A stretch of 64,000 bases of DNA from Rummeliibacillus pycnus (GTDB taxonomy: Bacteria > Bacillota > Bacilli > Bacillales_A > Planococcaceae), in contig NZ_KZ614145.1 of the NCBI RefSeq assembly GCF_002884495.1, positions 2,308,423 to 2,372,422 of the forward strand, given 5' to 3'. A program made the position numbers and the translations under genes. The notes below the pieces were generated by a model that was not told the DNA's origin, made no database searches, and saw only the letters and a program-made list of their open reading frames with translations. Shown here in pieces: positions 4,308-38,595 of the stretch (positions are counted from its first letter, which is position 1; every line of letters begins with the position of its first letter).

Positions 4308-4583
4308 TTACTTAGCATTTAGGCTAATAAGAATAAGCGTAATTCCTGCAAATAAGCAAATCATTCTTGTCACAGAAATTTTATCAGCTAGTCCAAATAA
4401 AGCAATTGCCGTCGTTACGATTAATACTGTTGGCCCTACTAGCGCAAGCATGGTATTAATATAGAATGCTTTTTCTAAACTATTAGATTTTAACATCAAA
4501 AAAGCAGCAGTTACTTCAATACTTCCAGACAATACACGCAAGATAACCATAGCAAGAAGTGATTTTTCAATAATTGTCATCAT
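4308..4583 (-). CDS. yqhV: YqhV-family membrane protein (DUF2619)
   Basis: A 91-residue integral membrane protein with three hydrophobic segments. The pattern LLAMVILRVLSGSIEVTAAFLMLK, then EKAFYINTMLALVGPTVLIVTT and GLADKISVTRM, matches what I remember of B. subtilis YqhV, whose gene sits next to the spoIIIA sporulation operon. Here the gene stands alone; no spoIIIA gene is present. The function is not established. The gene is convergent with the MFS exporter. No good Shine-Dalgarno is obvious ahead of the doubled ATG, so the second Met is an alternative start. Confidence 0.8.
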   Translation of the reverse strand: MMTIIEKSLLAMVILRVLSGSIEVTAAFLMLKSNSLEKAFYINTMLALVGPTVLIVTTAIALFGLADKISVTRMICLFAGITLILISLNAK

Positions 4584-29771: not shown

Positions 29772-31556
29772 TTATACAACTACATTTAACTGTTTTCCTA
29801 ACCGTTTTAATTCTGCCGTTATATAAGATTGACTATAATCATAGCCAATTATCGCTTTTACATCACCTTCATCAGTTATTAGAGGTGCAAAGCATGTTTT
29901 CCAAGATCCGTAACGGTCCTCATAAACAGATGTAATGGAAACATTTCCTTTAAAGGCATCATTGGCAGCATTCATCACTTCTGTTGGACCTAGGTATGCT
30001 TCACCAATCTCCATAACAAAATCATCACAAGCTGACACATGTACCAAATTCCCTTCTTTACTCATCTTAAATACATATACCCAATGAATAATACCTTCAA
30101 GACGTTTTATATCCGTTAGTTTTTTTGTCAGCAACTCTGTAGCCTTACACTTTTCATCCTCAATAGCTTGTTGAACCAGCTTTAATGGGATTGTGACAGC
30201 TGTTACGATGGCAATCGATCTTAACCTTTTATCTAACTCTTCTTCTAGCACTGCTCGTTTGGTTTTAACCGGTAATTGTTCTTGTTGCCGTATTTTTTGC
30301 AACTTGCGACTCATTGTTGGTTGGCTAATCCCTAACATATCAGCAGCTAACTTTGGCGATTTATAGCGAGTCATTGCCATTTCGATTAACTCTTTCTCTA
30401 CTAGATCAAACGCATCTTTTAAAGGTAAAACTTGTGAGAAAAAATGATTAATTTTAGTCGGCTTCTTTTCTATATTTAGAATCTCTAAGATTTCTCTACT
30501 TGTTATAATCTCTGTTTCCGTTAAAACAACTAGACGTTCTATACTATTTTCTAGTTCACGAACATTCCCTGGCCAATCTTGAATGCATAGATAATCCACA
30601 GCATCATCGGTAAAGACGACGTTTAAATTATATTTGTGATTAAATTTAGTAACGAAATGATGGATAAGATCAGGTATTTCTTGTACACGATTCCGTAGAG
30701 CAGGAATTTGAATAGGCACAATATTTAAACGATAAAATAGATCTTCTCTAAATTTTCCTTCTTGAACAAGTTTAGTTAAGTTCTGATTGGTCGCTGATAC
30801 AATTTGAACATCAATTGGATAAGCCTTTTGACTACCGATTGGCGTCACTGTACGCTCTTGAAGTACGCGAAGTAACTTTACTTGCATTGGAAGTGGCAGC
30901 TCTCCGATTTCATCTAAAAACAAAATGCCCTGATCAGCTTGGCGAAATTTACCGATACTTCCTCCTTTGGATGCACCTGTATAAGCACCCTCAACATGTC
31001 CAAATAATTCATTTTCAATTAAATTTTCTGGAATTGCGCCACAGTTAATCGCAACAAATGGTCCCTTTTTTCGCATACCTGACAGATGAATCGTACGTGC
31101 AGCCATTTCTTTTCCTACTCCTGATTCTCCTAAAAGTAGCACAGTAACGCCCGTTGTAGCCGTTTTACGTAATTTTTCATATACTTCATACATTTCAGGA
31201 CTATTTACGATAAACGGAAAATCAGCTGAAATTGGTTTATATAATTTATTTTTACGATTACTATAATTCTCTACTTTACTATATGTGTAGATGTACTTAG
31301 TTTCGTATGTTAAAACTTTTGTAATGATCTGCAGTCCTGTTTTCGTCTTTTGAAGAAATGATTGCTTTTCTTTTTCTTCGATCAATGAAAAAATTGCTTT
31401 CTCAAAAACTCTCATCTCTAATTCTTGAATAGTATGTAAGATTGTCCCCTCAAACAAAAAGCTATTATGTCCTACCAAAAACTCTTCAATTGCACCAGTA
31501 CTATCTGCAATTACTACACCATCATATTGTTGTAATACAAATTGCTTCCAGTCCAT
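29772..31556 (-). CDS. Sigma-54-dependent activator with an extra C-terminal sensory domain
   Basis: A 594-residue activator. An N-terminal sensor region (1-110) is followed by an AAA+ domain with Walker A GESGVGKE (143-150), the sigma-54 contact loop GAYTGA (190-195), Walker B ILFLDEIG (211-218) and the WPGNVREL motif at 328-335. A Fis-type helix-turn-helix lies at 399-423 (SPKLAADMLGISQPTMSRKL). Unusually, about 170 residues follow it; their end (GSWKTCFAPLITDEGDVKAIIGYDYS) resembles the closing strands of Cache/PAS-like ligand domains. It is divergent from the N-demethylase operon, whose -24/-12 promoter it most likely activates. A 19-bp near-palindrome at 31584-31602 could be its upstream binding site. 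Confidence 0.9.
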   Translation of the reverse strand: MDWKQFVLQQYDGVVIADSTGAIEEFLVGHNSFLFEGTILHTIQELEMRVFEKAIFSLIEEKEKQSFLQKTKTGLQIITKVLTYETKYIYTYSKVENYSNRKNKLYKPISADFPFIVNSPEMYEVYEKLRKTATTGVTVLLLGESGVGKEMAARTIHLSGMRKKGPFVAINCGAIPENLIENELFGHVEGAYTGASKGGSIGKFRQADQGILFLDEIGELPLPMQVKLLRVLQERTVTPIGSQKAYPIDVQIVSATNQNLTKLVQEGKFREDLFYRLNIVPIQIPALRNRVQEIPDLIHHFVTKFNHKYNLNVVFTDDAVDYLCIQDWPGNVRELENSIERLVVLTETEIITSREILEILNIEKKPTKINHFFSQVLPLKDAFDLVEKELIEMAMTRYKSPKLAADMLGISQPTMSRKLQKIRQQEQLPVKTKRAVLEEELDKRLRSIAIVTAVTIPLKLVQQAIEDEKCKATELLTKKLTDIKRLEGIIHWVYVFKMSKEGNLVHVSACDDFVMEIGEAYLGPTEVMNAANDAFKGNVSITSVYEDRYGSWKTCFAPLITDEGDVKAIIGYDYSQSYITAELKRLGKQLNVVV

Positions 31557-31583
31557 TATCTATTCACTCCGTTCAATTTCAGA

Positions 31584-31602
31584 TTTGAAAAGCTTTTTCA
31601 AA
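31584..31602. promoter_or_regulatory. Candidate upstream activator site
   Basis: TTTGAAAAGCTTTTTCAAA is nearly palindromic and lies about 50 bp upstream of the -24 element, between the two divergent genes. Its binding by the sigma-54 activator is inference. Confidence 0.45.
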
Positions 31603-31650
31603 ATTGAATAGTAAAAAGTTTTTAATTATTGAAATAATCTAAATTTTCAA

Positions 31651-31667
31651 TTGGCATGTTTCTTGCA
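31651..31667 (+). promoter_or_regulatory. Sigma-54 (-24/-12) promoter
   Basis: TTGGCATGTTTCTTGCA matches the sigma-54 consensus TTGGCAC-N5-TTGCA with one change in the -24 element and correct spacing between GG and GC. It lies 50 bp upstream of the 31717 gene. Confidence 0.9.
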
Positions 31668-31716
31668 TAATTATTATGTAGCTGTCAAAAATCTTCACAT
31701 AAGGAGGTGATGCAAT

Positions 31717-31920
31717 GTGACAGAATTTACAAACAAATCACCAGAAAATCTTGTAACGTGCTCTCTACAAAATCGACTAACAGCTGAACTCGAAAAAAAA
31801 ATCGATGCATTTGAGCAAGAAGAATCGCAATACAGAGGCGATTTTCGGTTGATCGATACGCTAGATGTGTTTATCTTCATGGCTTTTGTAGGACTTTTCT
31901 TCATTATAACAGTAATTTAA
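31717..31920 (+). CDS. Small single-pass membrane protein at the head of the N-demethylase operon
   Basis: A 67-residue protein starting at GTG 31717, since the overlapping ATG runs straight into TGA; AAGGAGGTG lies upstream at 31701-31708. A charged, helical N-terminal half (QNRLTAELEKKIDAFEQEESQ) is followed by one C-terminal membrane helix (DVFIFMAFVGLFFIITVI). I do not recognise the family. Placement between the sigma-54 promoter and the permease gene suggests an accessory subunit of the permease or of the oxidative enzymes at the membrane. Confidence 0.6.
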   Translation: MTEFTNKSPENLVTCSLQNRLTAELEKKIDAFEQEESQYRGDFRLIDTLDVFIFMAFVGLFFIITVI

Positions 31921-31980
31921 AGATAAATTATCTAAATGTAAATAAAAATAACATCGAAAAAGTACAAAGGGGGTCAGTAT

Positions 31981-33399
31981 TTGTCTAAAGAAAACTCGAA
32001 TATAGCCAATGATGTTGCTCTTGGCTATTTACCAACAGACAAAAAGGGAAAAATTTTCGGTTTGTGGGATTTAATCTTGGTACAAGTAGTGATTGGATTA
32101 TCCGCCTTTGGACTTTTAACAGGTGCATATACAGGAAGTATGTTGAATGCAAAAGATTCAATAGCTGTCATCCTATTTGGAAATGCTTTTCCGATGTTTT
32201 TAATCGCACCGATTGTTTTACTTTTTGCACGCTATGGAATTGATACATTTATCGGTTTTCGAAGTTCACTTGGCTATTTAGGAGCCACTCTCTTCTTCTT
32301 ATTATTTCTCGTGTTAACGCTTGGTTACATATCTGTTGCGTTATTTATGTCAGGGCAAATACTTGTCGAACTAGCTACTTGGCTTGGATTACCTAAATTC
32401 TTCATAGATTCTACAACTGGAACACCCTTTTTTTCAATTATTTTATTTTTTGTCGCCTTTCTCGTAGCATCTAATGGACCAATTGCTATCAAGAAATTTA
32501 ACATCTTGGCTGTTCCTTCATTTTTACTATTTTTAGCAGGATTACTTGGAATTTTAATGTTCAGTTCTCACATCCCAGCCATTCGTTCACTTATACCATC
32601 CGAACCATTAGACATGAAATCACAATCTTTTATGACTGCACTTGAAATTAATATTGGTATGGGATTTTCTTGGTTACCCTACCTTGGACAATATGCTCGC
32701 CTAGCAAAAAACGGAACGAGTGCCTATAAAGCTAGTTTTTATAGTTATGGCATGATAATCTGCCTTGCAGCTTTGGTTGGTGCTCTAGCAACATTAGTAA
32801 TTGGTACGATTGATCCAGCTTCTTGGATGTTTCCAATAGGTGGCACTTATCTAGGAGTTGCTGGCTTACTTCTATTAACCTTGGCAAATGTAGGTGCGGT
32901 TATTTTCCTAATGTACTCACAAGCAATTAGCTTTAAAACAATGTTCCATTCAAAGTCTTGGAAATTCTCGATGAGTACAACAATTCCTGCAATTCTATTA
33001 CTCATTAGTCCAACTTTCTATAATGCATTTGGTTCATTTATGTCATTTATCTCCTTTGTAATGGCTAGTCTAGGAGGAATTATTATCTCCGATTACTTCT
33101 TTATCAAAAAACAAAAAATTTCACTTCGTGAGCTCTATAACTTGAAAGGTGACTACTACTACTATAAAGGTGTTAATCCATCTGCTGTAATAGCAGTTAG
33201 CATCAGTACGATTGTGTACTGGTCTTTATACAATCCGCTCACAATGGAATCTAGCAAACTCTTTTTGTATTTATCAGCAGGGCTTCCAACCTACTTTGTG
33301 GCTCTTGTGACTTATTATCTCTCTGCAAAATATGTATTTAATTTCGCTGTTGATCATTCAACAGCATTATCAAAGATTCAACCTACTAAAGATCATTAA
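31981..33399 (+). CDS. NCS1-family permease (cytosine/purine/allantoin-type)
   Basis: A 472-residue importer with about 12 membrane segments. The N-terminus (DVALGYLPTDKKGKIFGLWDLILVQVVIGLSAFGLLTGAY) and FPMFLIAPIVLLFARYGIDTFIGFRSSLGYLGA fit the NCS1 family, which takes up nucleobases, hydantoins, allantoin or vitamins with H+ or Na+. Substrate residues cannot be assigned. The start is TTG at 31981 after AAGGGGGT. It lies 61 bp after the small membrane gene and 15 bp before the DUF3445 gene, so it is in the same operon and probably imports the N-methylated substrate. Confidence 0.85.
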   Translation: MSKENSNIANDVALGYLPTDKKGKIFGLWDLILVQVVIGLSAFGLLTGAYTGSMLNAKDSIAVILFGNAFPMFLIAPIVLLFARYGIDTFIGFRSSLGYLGATLFFLLFLVLTLGYISVALFMSGQILVELATWLGLPKFFIDSTTGTPFFSIILFFVAFLVASNGPIAIKKFNILAVPSFLLFLAGLLGILMFSSHIPAIRSLIPSEPLDMKSQSFMTALEINIGMGFSWLPYLGQYARLAKNGTSAYKASFYSYGMIICLAALVGALATLVIGTIDPASWMFPIGGTYLGVAGLLLLTLANVGAVIFLMYSQAISFKTMFHSKSWKFSMSTTIPAILLLISPTFYNAFGSFMSFISFVMASLGGIIISDYFFIKKQKISLRELYNLKGDYYYYKGVNPSAVIAVSISTIVYWSLYNPLTMESSKLFLYLSAGLPTYFVALVTYYLSAKYVFNFAVDHSTALSKIQPTKDH

Positions 33400-33414
33400 A
33401 AGGAGGAAATTTAA

Positions 33415-34401
33415 ATGTTTACACAAGATTTAGATTTTAAATGCACTGATTTGAATACTTTCCCATTCCCTTTCCGTTCGGATAATTACCGATATTCTAA
33501 TGATTTACGGAAACTTGAAAACTTAAACTGTATTGAAATTACGCCAGAATACAAATTGCAAGTGAAAGCTAAACGACGTTTACTTGACGAGCAACCCGAT
33601 GTGCGCTTTCAAGCATTAGAAGGAACAGATGAATTTCAATGGGAGATTTTAGAAATGTTAGTTGAAATGGCTATCGATCGCTATCCACAATATTTTTCCT
33701 TAGAAAAAAGAGATCCCGTTTGGACTTTTGAAAACCATATCTTCAAGGAAAAAGATACATTCACATTTGGAGATAGCAGTACACTTCCCTATGCACCATT
33801 AGATTATATAGGTCGTCATTTTCATAACGATTTTGTCTTAATGGTTCATCGTGATCAAAACTTCTATTTAGAAGTTGGCCAAGTTTCGTATGCTGCTCTT
33901 TTTTCGGCAAATTGGAATGCAGGTATGTCTTTTGATGAAATTCATGCACCTGTTCCGTTTGTTTCACGAAAAGGTGATCAGTTAGTAGATAGAATTCGCC
34001 GTTTTTTGTTATCTATTAACCCTGGTGAACCTTGGACACGAATCAATTGGAATCTAATGGCGGATCGTTGGGATGTTAACTACGAAACAATGGATGTATG
34101 GGAACCTCAACGCAGTCTTATTACACCAGAAAACGCCGGGAAACTCGTTCGCTTACGAGTAGAAGAGCAAAAATTTTATCGTATGCCACGTAGTAATGCG
34201 ATTCTATTTGTTTTAAACACTCAATTTTTACCTTTGGAAGATTTAAAGCTACGTCAAGAATGGTTTGATCTAACCTATAACGTACTACAAGATATACCGA
34301 AAGCAATGGCAGAGTACAAAGGGATTGCACCTTTTTTGCCTCAATCTGTCGAGTACTTACGCAGGGAAGCTGAAAAAATGAAAAAGGGAGGAGACTTATG
34401 A
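33415..34401 (+). CDS. Haem-dependent oxidative N-demethylase catalytic subunit (DUF3445/HODM family)
   Basis: A 328-residue protein. Family features: the opening FPFPFRSDNYRYSNDLRKL, the central IGRHFHNDFVLMVHRDQNFYLEVGQVSYAALFSANWNAGMSFDEIHAPVPF with the conserved IHAPVP, and LRVEEQKFYRMPRSNAILFVLNTQF. DUF3445 proteins are the PAS-fold haem subunit of a dimethylamine-type oxidative demethylase, which uses O2 and reductant to release formaldehyde. The true substrate here is unknown. The stop overlaps the ATG of the next gene (ATGA), so the two are translationally coupled. AAGGAGG precedes the ATG. Confidence 0.87.
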   Translation: MFTQDLDFKCTDLNTFPFPFRSDNYRYSNDLRKLENLNCIEITPEYKLQVKAKRRLLDEQPDVRFQALEGTDEFQWEILEMLVEMAIDRYPQYFSLEKRDPVWTFENHIFKEKDTFTFGDSSTLPYAPLDYIGRHFHNDFVLMVHRDQNFYLEVGQVSYAALFSANWNAGMSFDEIHAPVPFVSRKGDQLVDRIRRFLLSINPGEPWTRINWNLMADRWDVNYETMDVWEPQRSLITPENAGKLVRLRVEEQKFYRMPRSNAILFVLNTQFLPLEDLKLRQEWFDLTYNVLQDIPKAMAEYKGIAPFLPQSVEYLRREAEKMKKGGDL

Positions 34402-34898
34402 TCCCACAACGTCCAAGACTTTATGATGGTTCTATCGTTATAACTGACGGCCCCTTTATCTGTCGGGAATCCACAAAAAAAATGATCGTTTTCCGAGAAA
34501 AAGATATACCGTTTTCCAAAGAACAATTTCCTAAAACCATTCCTGTTAAAGAAGTGATGATCCCGGAAAAAAAAGAAATAATTCGTCAATTCATACAAAG
34601 CCAAACCATCGGTACACACATTTTTGTTCTTGCCCCTTGGGACACAGCAAGTATGGTCTTTGACGTTTGTATAGAAGAAGGCATGTCCGAAGAAGAGCTA
34701 CAAATTCAAATAATAGGTGACAAAAAACGGAAGGTCTATTGTATGAAATGTTATCAATTACATGAAGTGAAACTAGACGCGACAACAACACAGTGCTCAT
34801 GTGGAGCTCACTTAACTGTTGGCCCCTTCTTCTCTGCACTGCGACAAGGGTACATTGGCTATCCGTTCCAACCAATTATCGAAAAAGTGAGGAGTTGA
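34398..34898 (+). CDS. Small subunit of dimethylamine-type monooxygenase (metal-ribbon protein)
   Basis: A 166-residue protein. The N-terminal two-thirds carries a ferredoxin-reductase-like NAD-domain remnant (IGTHIFVLAPWDTASMVFDVCIEEGMSEEELQIQIIGDK). The C-terminus has a metal-ribbon Cys pattern, C115xxC118 and C133xC135 (YCMKCYQLHEV ... QCSCGAHLTVGPFFSALRQGYIGYP). This fits the small subunit found with DUF3445 oxygenases in DMA monooxygenase clusters. It likely relays electrons or binds the partner reductase. The ATG overlaps the preceding stop by 4 nt. Confidence 0.75.
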   Translation: MIPQRPRLYDGSIVITDGPFICRESTKKMIVFREKDIPFSKEQFPKTIPVKEVMIPEKKEIIRQFIQSQTIGTHIFVLAPWDTASMVFDVCIEEGMSEEELQIQIIGDKKRKVYCMKCYQLHEVKLDATTTQCSCGAHLTVGPFFSALRQGYIGYPFQPIIEKVRS

Positions 34899-34900
34899 AT

Positions 34901-35869
34901 ATGATGAGAGTTGCTGGAAACATCGAAGTAAAAATAGAAAAAATTATCCATGAGACACCTAATGTAAAACGTTTTCGACTTGTTCCAACCGATCAATCTC
35001 TTTTACCACCTTTTACAGGGGGATCTCATATTGAAACGACCATTGAAAATAATGATCAACGTTTTGTTCGTTCCTATTCTTTAACAAGTCCCCCAACCGA
35101 ACGTAATTTTTATGAAATTGCCATTCAACGAGATCCACATTCTCGTGGTGGATCAGTGTTTTGGCATGAACAGGCTGAGATTGGTCAAACACTATGTATC
35201 AGTTTTCCAAGAAATCATTTTCCACTTAGTTCACGTGGCCGTCACCATGCATTTTATGCGGCAGGTATTGGGATTACACCATTCCTAACCATGATTCGTG
35301 ATTTGCCAAAAGAAGATACTTTTGAATTGCATTATGCAGCTAGAACAAAACAATCTTGTGCTTTTTATGATTATTTACAAGAGCACTATCCGGATCAAAC
35401 AACGTTTTACTTTAGCCGAGTTCAAAATCCCCAACGGTTGACAACGGACATAATGGCAACTCATCGCGTTGGAACTCACGTTTACTTTTGTGGGCCAACG
35501 CCCATGGTAGAAGAATTTCGTAACGCAGCCAAATCTATAGGCTATCCTGTTAGTGCTATTCATTTTGAATTGTTCGGTAACAACGCTGACAACTTACCAA
35601 AAAATCCTTTCATCGTGGAACTTACTGAAAGTGAGCAAATACTTGAAGTATCTGACAAAGAAACTTTACTTGAAACACTTTTAAAGGCAGGCATTGATGC
35701 TCCTCATTCTTGCCGTATTGGTGGTTGTGGAAGTTGTGAAGTAGATGTTATCGAGGGTGAAGTAGATCACCGAGATGTTTTCTTAAGTGAGGAAAATAAA
35801 AAGACGCGTAAAACGATCTTAACTTGCTGTTCACGTGCCAAATCAGAAAAACTTACTTTAAAACTATAA
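34901..35869 (+). CDS. Ferredoxin-type oxidoreductase (flavin + NAD + 2Fe-2S), electron donor subunit
   Basis: A 322-residue phthalate-dioxygenase-reductase-like protein. Start ATG 34901, with GGAG 6 nt upstream; a longer in-frame stretch upstream lies inside the preceding gene. Flavin-binding motif RSYSLTSPP, NAD-domain opening FYAAGIGITPFLTMI and CGPTPMVEEF, then a plant-type 2Fe-2S domain with C271, C276, C279 and C309 (SCRIGGCGSCEVDVIEGEVDHRD ... LTCC). It would pass electrons from NAD(P)H to the haem oxygenase. It lies 2 bp after the small subunit gene. Confidence 0.9.
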   Translation: MMRVAGNIEVKIEKIIHETPNVKRFRLVPTDQSLLPPFTGGSHIETTIENNDQRFVRSYSLTSPPTERNFYEIAIQRDPHSRGGSVFWHEQAEIGQTLCISFPRNHFPLSSRGRHHAFYAAGIGITPFLTMIRDLPKEDTFELHYAARTKQSCAFYDYLQEHYPDQTTFYFSRVQNPQRLTTDIMATHRVGTHVYFCGPTPMVEEFRNAAKSIGYPVSAIHFELFGNNADNLPKNPFIVELTESEQILEVSDKETLLETLLKAGIDAPHSCRIGGCGSCEVDVIEGEVDHRDVFLSEENKKTRKTILTCCSRAKSEKLTLKL

Positions 35870-35886
35870 AAAGGGAGAGAATGAAA

Positions 35887-37374
35887 ATGACAATTCAAAC
35901 AAGTGTATTAACATTAAAAAACTATATTAACGGTCAATGGAGTGAACCCATTTCAAAACAATACGAAGAAGTGATTAATCCTGCTAACCAAGAAGTAATT
36001 GCTTACGCTCCCCTTTCAACAAAAGAAGAAACAGAACTCGCTATTCAAGCAGCAAAAGAAAGTTTTCATTCAGGTATTTGGGCTTCTAAAACTACACACG
36101 AACGAGCAGCAGTATTAGTCGAAATCGCCAATAAAATTGATGAAATGGCAGAAGAATTAACAATCCTAGAAACACTCGATAATGGTAAACGAAAAGATGA
36201 AGCAAGCTTTGATATTGCGGATGCCGCAACAGCCTTCCGATACTATGCAGGTCTAATCTTACATCCAGATGGCGAGACTTATCCCGTACCTGATAATGTG
36301 CAGGCAATGGTGATAAAAGAACCAATCGGGGTTGCAGGATTGATCGTACCATGGAATTTTCCTCTATTAATGGCTGTATGGAAAATCGCTCCGGCATTAG
36401 CAGCAGGTAATAGTATTGTTTTCAAACCCTCTGAGGTCACACCTGTAACAGCTATGAAACTGTTTGAAATTATGCATGATGCTGGTGTACCAAAAGGTGT
36501 TGCTAATATGGTCATCGGACATGGTGATCCCGTTGGCCAAACGATTGCAGAAAGCATAGATGTTGATATCATCTCCTTTACTGGTAGTACAAATACTGGA
36601 CGTAAAATAATGCAGGCAGCAAGCAGTAATCTGAAGAAGATTTCCTTAGAACTTGGGGGCAAATCACCTAATATTATTTTTGCTGATGCAGATTTAGAAA
36701 CAGCTGTTGATTATGGATTATTTGGGATTTTCTATGGTGCAGGTCAAGTTTGTTCTTCAGGTAGTCGGATTTTAGTTGAAGAGAGCATATATGATGAGTT
36801 TGTTGCACGGTATATTAAGCGGGCCAACAATATTAAAGTAGGTCCCGGACTTGCAGAAGAAACAGAAATGGGTGCAATTGTTAGTGAACAACAGATGAAT
36901 CGCATTTTAAATTATATTGAAAGTGGGATTCAAGAAGGTGCTACACTTGCTACTGGTGGTAAACGCCTCATAGAAAATGGATTAGACAAAGGATTCTTTA
37001 TAGCTCCAACTGTTTTCACAGATGTTACAAACGATATGCGTATCGTCCGCGAAGAAATCTTTGGCCCAGTAGTTACTATCCAAAAGTTCCATTCTGAAGA
37101 AGAGGCCATTCAACTCGCAAATGATACGGATTATGGCTTAGCTGGTGGCGTTTTTTCCAATGATGGCGCAAAAGCCTTACGTGTGATTAAAAAAGTTCGC
37201 GCGGGTATTACGTGGGTTAATGATTATCACCCAACTTATGTAGAAGCTCCTTGGGGTGGTTACAAACAAAGTGGAATTGGGCGCAGTTTAGGTAAATACG
37301 GTCTAGAGGAATTCCAAGAAACAAAACAGATCAATATTCGCCTAAATGTTGAACCAAATGGTTGGTTTAACTAA
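35887..37374 (+). CDS. Aldehyde dehydrogenase (NAD-dependent, ALDH superfamily)
   Basis: A 495-residue enzyme. The ATG at 35887 is preferred because GGGAG (35873-35877) is 9 nt away; the ATG at 35881 would be only 3 nt away. Catalytic Glu255 in LELGGKSP and nucleophile Cys289 in GAGQVCSSGSR are present, as are PWNFPLL and FGPVVTI. The closest general type is the betaine/amino-aldehyde group. In this operon it may oxidise formaldehyde released by demethylation, or an aldehyde made from the demethylated product. It ends the operon with a terminator. Confidence 0.93.
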   Translation: MTIQTSVLTLKNYINGQWSEPISKQYEEVINPANQEVIAYAPLSTKEETELAIQAAKESFHSGIWASKTTHERAAVLVEIANKIDEMAEELTILETLDNGKRKDEASFDIADAATAFRYYAGLILHPDGETYPVPDNVQAMVIKEPIGVAGLIVPWNFPLLMAVWKIAPALAAGNSIVFKPSEVTPVTAMKLFEIMHDAGVPKGVANMVIGHGDPVGQTIAESIDVDIISFTGSTNTGRKIMQAASSNLKKISLELGGKSPNIIFADADLETAVDYGLFGIFYGAGQVCSSGSRILVEESIYDEFVARYIKRANNIKVGPGLAEETEMGAIVSEQQMNRILNYIESGIQEGATLATGGKRLIENGLDKGFFIAPTVFTDVTNDMRIVREEIFGPVVTIQKFHSEEEAIQLANDTDYGLAGGVFSNDGAKALRVIKKVRAGITWVNDYHPTYVEAPWGGYKQSGIGRSLGKYGLEEFQETKQINIRLNVEPNGWFN

Positions 37375-37451: not shown

Positions 37452-37611
37452 CAATTTTAAGTCAATGGCCTATTAAAAGGTAGCGAATTAGATGTTGTAG
37501 TAAACTTTGTAAAACTATTGTGAAGTGTTTTGTAAATTCAATCATACTACCTTCAATTGTACTAAAATAGTCTTTAGAATTGGACAATTTTACTTTGTAA
37601 AGGAGATCCGT

Positions 37612-38595
37612 ATGTTTAAAGGCGAAAAAGTATTCGAAAGTGAAAAATCCATCAAATATCTGTTCCAAAAATCATATGCAAAGACAAATAACTTAGTTAT
37701 TATCTTTTCAGCATTTCCTACTAAAGGAAAGCAACCAACATATAATTTTGTTCGAACCTTATCGGAGTTCGATTGTAACAAGCTATTTATATTAGACGAT
37801 TTCGGTAGTCGAGCAAGTTACTATCTATGTGAAAAGAAAGACTTCGCCATCGAAAGATCCGTCATTTCTTTAATTAATTTTATTATCAAAGAAAATGACA
37901 TTAATTTTATCATTTCTTGTGGTTCTAGCAAAGGTGGCTATGCAGCATTATATTATGGCATTAAGTATGGATTCGATCACATTATCGCTGCTTCGCCTCA
38001 ATATTATTTAGGTGACTATTTATTAGATCAGACAAATTCACAGGATGTGACTCTTTTTATGTCCGGAGTTTCAGCAGATGAAGATCACCGATTTCTGAAT
38101 GAGATTATGCCGAAGATGATTGAGAAAACACAAAACAAGCCTAATATTTTCATTCATCTGGGTAAAGATGAGCCACACTATGAAAATCATGTAAAGCCCT
38201 TATTAGCAAAATTAGATGAAGTTCATATCAATTACGAACTTAATTTGGGTAACTATCATAAACATAGTGATGTTGGCAAATTCTTTCCTACTCTATTGAA
38301 AAACACGATTCGAGAGTTATTAAATTATCCATCACTTGAAATCATCCAATCGATGAAGGGAAAGCAATCCATTGGTTCACAATGCATATTTGAGGTTATA
38401 ACCGACTCTGAGAAAAATAATATTGCATGGTATGTCTACCGTGATAACGAACGAATTGATATGAAAAATTATTCGACCGATCATCAACTTTCAGTAACAT
38501 TTGACCGAGTTGGAAAATATCATGCAAAAGCATTTGCAGTTAATAGCTTAAAGCATAAAGTTTCTGTTAGTTCTGAAGAGATTGAGGTTTTTTAA
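37612..38595 (+). CDS. XcbB/CpsF-like alpha/beta-hydrolase with C-terminal Ig-like tail
   Basis: A 327-residue protein; ATG 37612 follows AAAGGAGAT, whereas the longer frame upstream has no ribosome site. The core has IIFSAFPTKGKQPTYNFVRTL, KLFILDDFGSRASYYLCEKKDFAIERSVISLI, the nucleophile elbow SCGSSKGGYAALYYGIKYG and IAASPQYYLGDYLL. This pattern matches the XcbB/CpsF capsule-synthesis family, related to the Asp2 accessory secretion esterases. Residues about 245-327 form an Ig-like beta module. It stands alone with no other capsule genes, so a surface-polysaccharide role is only suggestive. Confidence 0.72.
   Translation: MFKGEKVFESEKSIKYLFQKSYAKTNNLVIIFSAFPTKGKQPTYNFVRTLSEFDCNKLFILDDFGSRASYYLCEKKDFAIERSVISLINFIIKENDINFIISCGSSKGGYAALYYGIKYGFDHIIAASPQYYLGDYLLDQTNSQDVTLFMSGVSADEDHRFLNEIMPKMIEKTQNKPNIFIHLGKDEPHYENHVKPLLAKLDEVHINYELNLGNYHKHSDVGKFFPTLLKNTIRELLNYPSLEIIQSMKGKQSIGSQCIFEVITDSEKNNIAWYVYRDNERIDMKNYSTDHQLSVTFDRVGKYHAKAFAVNSLKHKVSVSSEEIEVF

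Follow-up and report, generated by a model that had tools for sequence, protein, structure and literature searches.

A conserved sigma-54-type operon of Rummeliibacillus pycnus for the probable import and oxidative demethylation of a small acyclic N-methylated cation

A 64,000-nucleotide stretch of the Rummeliibacillus pycnus genome (contig NZ_KZ614145.1, positions 2,308,423 to 2,372,422; hereafter the window) contains an operon whose probable role is the uptake and oxidative demethylation of an organic cation that is small, acyclic, and N-methylated. The operon comprises six co-directional, closely spaced genes and a divergent activator (29772-37374; Table 1), and the host genome is a single contig of 3.85 Mb. 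Gene order, conservation, protein families, alpha-subunit fold, permease phylogeny, and promoter conservation were computed directly. The original prediction, made from the DNA alone, had joined an NCS1 permease, a DUF3445 haem enzyme, its small subunit, a reductase, an aldehyde dehydrogenase (ALDH), and a divergent activator into a sigma-54-type operon for oxidative N-demethylation. All of these genes are present, as shown by Pfam matches (that of the small subunit lying just under its cut-off), and the pathway type is supported by homology and conservation. With respect to the extent of the operon, the named genes stood, but the first gene, encoding a 67-residue membrane protein, had been missed. 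Among the papers listed by searches of the open-licence literature, no title or abstract start describes this operon, subscription papers being outside the search.

Among 261 genomes of the order, 13 encode a DUF3445 protein (PF11927); the three listed genus mates encode none. An open reading frame (ORF) for a permease lies immediately 5' of the alpha-subunit gene in 12 of these 13 genomes, and the remaining one, G240, has a locus of another type (handles beginning with G and L are our own for genomes and loci). Conservation was assessed in 29 loci, i.e., 24 named Bacillales loci from one contig scan, a B. badius plasmid, and four longer stretches, which amount to 28 distinct records (L053 and L031, whose contigs have the same length, are probably one genome), two of them from B. 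badius. The genes for the small membrane protein, permease, alpha subunit, DmmA-like subunit, reductase, and ALDH were each detected by tblastn (E 1e-3) in all 29 loci; the small-protein queries were eight members, seven from these loci, and genes lying in pieces in L019 and L055 were scored as present. The activator was found in 27 loci, the remaining two (L035 and L055) ending at or near a contig end. The same gene set thus occurs in other Bacillales, and the permease is missing from none of the homologous clusters. Inside the block, the only extra gene in the loci whose gene order was mapped is an inserted hemA. Genes for iron-containing alcohol dehydrogenase (Fe-ADH), ALDH, aminotransferase, and alanine dehydrogenase flank some loci, but they differ between lineages and were therefore not regarded as parts of the module.

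The alpha subunit scores 197.3 bits against the haem oxidative N-demethylase (HODM) of Pseudomonas mendocina (5lte_A), and the first Foldseek matches of its structural model (predicted local distance difference test [pLDDT] 76.9) are 5lte and 5lth, with a template-modelling score of 0.81 and an E value of 3.6e-28; the next match follows at 0.019. The model thus suggests a DUF3445 haem-PAS fold, with haem binding predicted. HODM itself is reportedly described in a 2016 abstract as the first PAS domain known to act as an enzyme. The reductase appears to be of the phthalate-dioxygenase-reductase type, with a 2Fe-2S centre and a predicted flavin. In alpha family and fold, in its flavin/2Fe-2S reductase, and possibly in its DmmA-like subunit, the operon resembles HODM and the DmmABC(D) system of Ruegeria pomeroyi, whereas the NCS1 permease, the small membrane protein, the ALDH, and the sigma-54 activator are additions, and one loop of the alpha subunit is rebuilt. 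In an alignment of 30 clade sequences with six dimethylamine-type sequences (Rhizobium, Paracoccus, G240, and three Acinetobacter, typed from annotation and context), 50 residues are invariant throughout. Within the loop NW..-R.D....W, the residues N213, M215, A216, W219, V221, N222, Y223, and M226 are fixed in 30/30 clade members and occur in 0/6 dimethylamine-type sequences, every one of which carries T215, T221, and Y226; HODM has the dimethylamine-type form. Four clade members inspected at this point have a loop shorter by one residue. Residues 219-228 have pLDDT values below 50, and because of this low confidence the changed loop cannot be placed relative to the haem.

The near-consensus -24/-12 promoter (consensus used, TGGCAC-N5-TTGCW) that had been proposed for the operon gains its credibility from comparison. 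The window alone contains 36 sites with at most two mismatches against an expectation of 24.9, and six of the 36 have a single mismatch, which is weak evidence and could not reject a chance occurrence. However, 28 of the 29 loci have, 5' of the small gene, a site that deviates at no more than one base, and in the exception (L035) the contig starts inside that region; a chance promoter was rejected on this basis. The host has one rpoN copy, about 0.94 Mb from the operon, and a sigma-54 factor gene adjoins the activator in L023 (2804-4204), L027 (3015-4292), and L057 (12206-13534). The activator has an AAA+ sigma-54 interaction domain with the sequence GAYTGA (a GAFTGA-type loop) and a Fis-type helix-turn-helix (HTH_8); in its model (pLDDT 79.9, predicted template-modelling score 0.43) the AAA+ part matches NtrC1/FleQ. 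Its N- and C-terminal parts gave no Pfam match above cut-off, nor did the C-terminal domain give a credible match by sequence to the Protein Data Bank. This domain, which follows the helix-turn-helix (29775-30272, minus strand), is conserved in an 18-row alignment, and its pattern YxDxYGxWKTSxAP...GxDYSK looks Cache/PAS-like.

The hemA gene (glutamyl-tRNA reductase) is inserted between permease and alpha-subunit genes in six loci (L033-L037 and L043), in copies 55-100% identical to that of L033 (tblastn), which itself scores 385.5 bits against the hemA cut-off of 209.55. It was not found by tblastn in five other loci given (L014, L018, L030, L031, and L032). A zero-mismatch -24/-12 site precedes the inserted hemA in 6/6 cases; L031, which lacks hemA, has such a site at 4432, just 5' of the alpha-subunit gene. 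The insertion would suit a haem enzyme, and haem supply may be placed under the same activator in these lineages.

A clue to the substrate class comes from the permease. In a maximum-likelihood phylogeny of 40 NCS1 proteins (L083 was found later and is outside the tree), the operon permeases form a group of 26 rows (support, 100/100). Four plasmid-borne relatives, including one encoded on a metformin plasmid, join this group (95/87), and three permeases of other Bacillota classes branch off one step further out. The resulting 33-row clade (100/98) excludes Escherichia coli CodB and AllW as well as the two further NCS1 proteins of the host, which fall near AllW. The original prediction had taken NCS1 membership to indicate a methylated purine, hydantoin, or allantoin-like molecule; this is unsupported, since the permease groups with the metformin-carrier lineage and with permeases linked to methylamine methyltransferases. 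It is assigned to the organic-cation (MetT) branch of NCS1, and cation transport is predicted. Its score against TIGR00800 (95.5 bits) does not reach the cut-off of 353.1.

The gene neighborhoods of the relatives point in a similar direction. The permeases of Thioclava, Gemmobacter, and Ensifer have agmatinase-family genes and ALDH and/or choline-dehydrogenase-like genes alongside, and that of Pseudomonas has agmatinase-family and HypA/HypB genes, a region common to metformin-degrading plasmids according to PMC9800807. Outside the plasmid group, an MTTB gene is located one gene from the permease in L050, and downstream of the L051 permease come genes for a dimethylamine methyltransferase, a corrinoid protein, and MTTB, with an in-frame TAG in both methyltransferase genes. 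L083 (1619-14331 in G745) comprises an NCS1 permease, a small ORF, a Dimeth_Pyl gene, two MTTB genes, Fe-ADH, and an ALDH that is 44% identical to the window ALDH, in a cluster of the anaerobe type. A search for further methyltransferase-linked permeases had a small yield (2 genomes of 97, 2 of 20, and 1 of 10), and every one of these counts contains the genome of the query itself or one already known. New were G679 (L085, with nitrilase-type neighbors) and G745 (L083 and L084). The arrangement in L051 and L083, where an NCS1 permease with a small ORF before it lies near mtbB and mttB genes, recalls mttP/mtbP, which are named as methylamine permeases in methanogens (PMC5688252), the archaeal MttP being compared by name and not by NCS1 membership. 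Their setting is corrinoid-dependent demethylation, whereas that of the window operon is predicted to be O2-dependent.

The characterized reference for the branch is MetT of Aminobacter NyZ550, an NCS1 protein needed for the import of metformin and 1-methylbiguanide, whose W231 alanine mutant retained 11.2% activity (PMC13390362). The equivalent position, aligned on the assumption of a one-residue numbering offset between Aminobacter and Pseudomonas, is W in the operon permeases as well as in the plasmid-borne and methyltransferase-linked groups, and not W in CodB, AllW, and five other NCS1 proteins compared. MetT is placed in the same 100/98 branch via the Pseudomonas KHPS1 plasmid protein, which is taken as its orthologue and has a similar small ORF upstream, there with an in-frame stop. 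On the other hand, MetT and the window permease are only 26% identical and differ at two cavity positions, and the operon includes no metformin hydrolase genes.

A small ORF is another recurrent feature of these permease loci. In the window, its GTG start codon lies seven bases after AGGAGGTG. The 14 members aligned are 53-76 residues long; their N-terminal half is charged, and a single hydrophobic helix lies at the C-terminal end. The motif [DE][LI]xxR is present in 13 (K in the window) and a D before the helix in 12 (E in L036 and H in L033); none of the seven members scanned matched a Pfam family above cut-off. A profile of eight Bacillales small proteins was run against 984 ORFs from ten related permease loci. 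The ORF immediately 5' of the L052 permease ranked first (E 9e-4), and six of the seven best matches were ORFs immediately 5' of a permease (L052, L084, L050, L085, L044, and L051), five of these at E values of 0.18-3.2 only; the small ORFs of L038, L039, and L083 were not among the matches listed. In the reverse direction, against 593 ORFs, four Bacillales members ranked first (best E 5e-4) and all seven were in the top nine, and the profile-profile comparison of the two groups gave a probability of 87.5 (P 3.6e-6). The scores that suggest kinship between the groups are thus weak, but the positions are telling. The small ORF before the permease of the Pseudomonas metformin plasmid (L040, just upstream of 5155) has an in-frame stop, and the phrase "small protein" is absent from the main text of the MetT paper (PMC13390362). 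We propose the 67-residue protein as a partner of the permease.

These components can be arranged into a putative pathway. Judged by its domains and the conserved site, the divergent activator would sense an inducer and activate sigma-54 RNA polymerase at 31652. The NCS1 permease, probably together with its 67-residue partner, would then bring the cation into the cell, as phylogeny and gene context suggest. By homology to HODM and DmmABC, NAD(P)H electrons would flow through the flavin/2Fe-2S reductase to the haem-PAS alpha subunit, helped by the DmmA-like subunit, and the alpha subunit would oxidize an N-methyl group with O2 to yield formaldehyde and the demethylated amine. Finally, the ALDH may oxidize formaldehyde, or an amino-aldehyde if the other C-N bond is cut. 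Among the candidate substrates, acyclic methylated amines of larger size (alkanolamines, diamines, or guanidines) come close to an even chance, dimethylamine or trimethylamine is possible, and a compound outside these classes and the rings discussed below is improbable.

A possible, if not the preferred, explanation would be a standard dimethylamine monooxygenase (DmmABC) operon with changes confined to its permease and regulator; methylamine would then leave the cell or be oxidized elsewhere, and the ALDH would remove formaldehyde. The characterized DUF3445 systems considered here use dimethylamine (PMC5520151), and 5lth is a dimethylamine complex according to its entry title. Permeases of the wider clade lie near dimethylamine methyltransferase genes, and the host carries one copper amine oxidase. 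HxlA is above cut-off in 4 of 14 genomes, the host not being among them, which makes formaldehyde oxidation by the ALDH plausible and a formaldehyde-oxidizing ALDH useful. The G240 locus shares the order alpha-DmmA-reductase with the window, whereas five proteobacterial clusters that were opened have the order DmmA-reductase-alpha. All five, however, carry an aminomethyltransferase gene beside the three Dmm genes, and two an APC permease; in Ruegeria this gene is needed for growth on trimethylamine and trimethylamine N-oxide, but not on dimethylamine (PMC5520151). Besides N213, seven loop positions separate all 30 clade alpha subunits from the six dimethylamine-type ones, and the ALDH resembles amino-aldehyde enzymes. 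As originally predicted, no folate-dependent formaldehyde-handling subunit is seen: a GcvT-type folate gene (DmmD) is absent from the window operon (the rest of the genome was not searched), and in the loci whose gene order was mapped, the ALDH gene directly follows the reductase gene. The genes scanned at the G240 locus likewise include no GcvT-type gene, so this absence is not special to the clade. The ALDH may, as originally suggested, stand in for the formaldehyde-handling subunit. Dimethylamine itself is therefore not certain, considering the rebuilt loop, the lack of the folate gene in the cluster, and the fact that two methylamine routes are mostly missing.

The locus of G240 (L054, 3047-10339) is a dimethylamine-type HODM locus with a copper amine oxidase and an ammonium transporter, and its reductase is present as two ORF pieces. 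The host copper amine oxidase (L086, 6130-8076) was not counted as a methylamine oxidase, as neither Amt nor HODM is encoded alongside; an adjacent protein of about 200 residues (30% identity) is common to both genomes.

It is rather unlikely that the substrate is a methylated alkanolamine or diamine which the haem enzyme cleaves at its longer C-N bond, with the ALDH oxidizing the resulting aldehyde and dimethylamine or methylamine leaving. The rebuilt loop would fit such a reaction, as would the ALDH, which shows 72-82% identity throughout the 29 loci and whose nearest solved relatives and nearest NCBIfam model are betaine aldehyde dehydrogenases of the BetB/GbsA type. Yet ALDH families are often broad, the TIGR01804 score of 624.3 bits is under the cut-off of 668.6, and we know of no DUF3445 enzyme that cuts a longer C-N bond. 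The position corresponding to what we take to be Y450 of the Staphylococcus aureus betaine aldehyde dehydrogenase is T in the window ALDH. An N-methylated ring compound (methylxanthine, methylhydantoin, or allantoin-like) is improbable: although NCS1 proteins often carry nucleobase- or hydantoin-type rings, and the only solved structures matched by the permease sequence are those of the hydantoin permease Mhp1 (E about 1.6e-5), the tree disfavors it, with the host's two other NCS1 proteins near AllW instead, and because hemA is the only gene inserted into the block in the loci mapped, no ring-opening enzyme travels with it.

Several observations weigh against the import and demethylation of an acyclic methylated cation. 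The tree tool flags possibly misleading long branches, and the window permease is just 23-27% identical to its plasmid-borne and methyltransferase-linked relatives, which makes the transfer of ligands weak. The L085 permease has nitrilase-type neighbors, and no methyltransferase was present among the genes scanned at L052. The position of MetT W43 is F in the window permease and I in L031-L037. A MetT mutant grew normally on nucleobase analogues, which its authors ascribe to inability or redundancy, so that nucleobase transport is possible even for MetT (PMC13390362). The DmmA-like subunit remains under both family cut-offs (PF22289, Table 1; NF041259, 45.6 versus 60 bits). If the product is methylamine, its further use is poorly represented with respect to the two routes searched, GmaS and copper amine oxidase: no convincing GmaS was found in 14 genomes, the best matches (34-37% identity to a Rhizobium glnT stand-in query) being taken as ordinary glutamine synthetases, and a copper amine oxidase occurs in 5 of the 14, one of them weak.

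Taking the reading as an acyclic-cation demethylation operon further, we tentatively suggest that the haem-PAS N-demethylases of this Bacillales clade have abandoned dimethylamine for another methylated cation, which would be delivered by a two-part transporter of NCS1 permease and one-helix protein, the aerobic counterpart of the pair near pyrrolysine methylamine methyltransferase genes, and that some lineages couple haem synthesis to the pathway via a sigma-54-driven hemA. A second haem-PAS clade that has an uptake system of its own and differs consistently in one loop would make substrate diversification testable. The small ORF 5' of these NCS1 permeases, which is found at a metformin-carrier locus as well, suggests that a subunit of the transporter has been overlooked, and the sigma-54 site before hemA suggests that haem supply may be tied to the pathway in some lineages.

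Table 1. Features of the operon (window positions) and sigma-54 sites before hemA (locus positions)
Feature	Position	Strand	Evidence
Divergent sigma-54-dependent activator	29772..31556	-	PF00158 227.2 bits; HTH_8
Sigma-54 -24/-12 promoter TGGCATgtttcTTGCA / TGGCATGTTTCTTGCA	31652..31667	+	One mismatch to consensus
One-helix membrane protein, 67 aa, GTG start	31717..31920	+	Conserved in related loci
NCS1-family permease	31981..33399	+	PF02133 75.6 bits, cut-off 23.5
Predicted haem oxidative N-demethylase alpha subunit (DUF3445/HODM)	33415..34401	+	PF11927 189.2 bits, cut-off 25
DmmA-like small subunit, Cys-rich C-terminus	34398..34898	+	PF22289 26.2 bits, cut-off 27.4
Phthalate-dioxygenase-reductase-like oxidoreductase, 2Fe-2S domain	34901..35869	+	Fer2, FAD_binding_6, NAD_binding_1; 2pia_A 179.3 bits
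Betaine-aldehyde-dehydrogenase-like ALDH	35881..37374	+	PF00171 599.9 bits; TIGR01804; 4q92_A 525.6 bits
Zero-mismatch sigma-54 sites before hemA	L033 6547, L034 6513, L035 1762, L036 6539, L037 6550, L043 10547		

The ORF located 3' of the operon (37525-38595) shows a weak likeness to XcbB/CpsF capsule proteins (45 bits versus a cut-off of 125).

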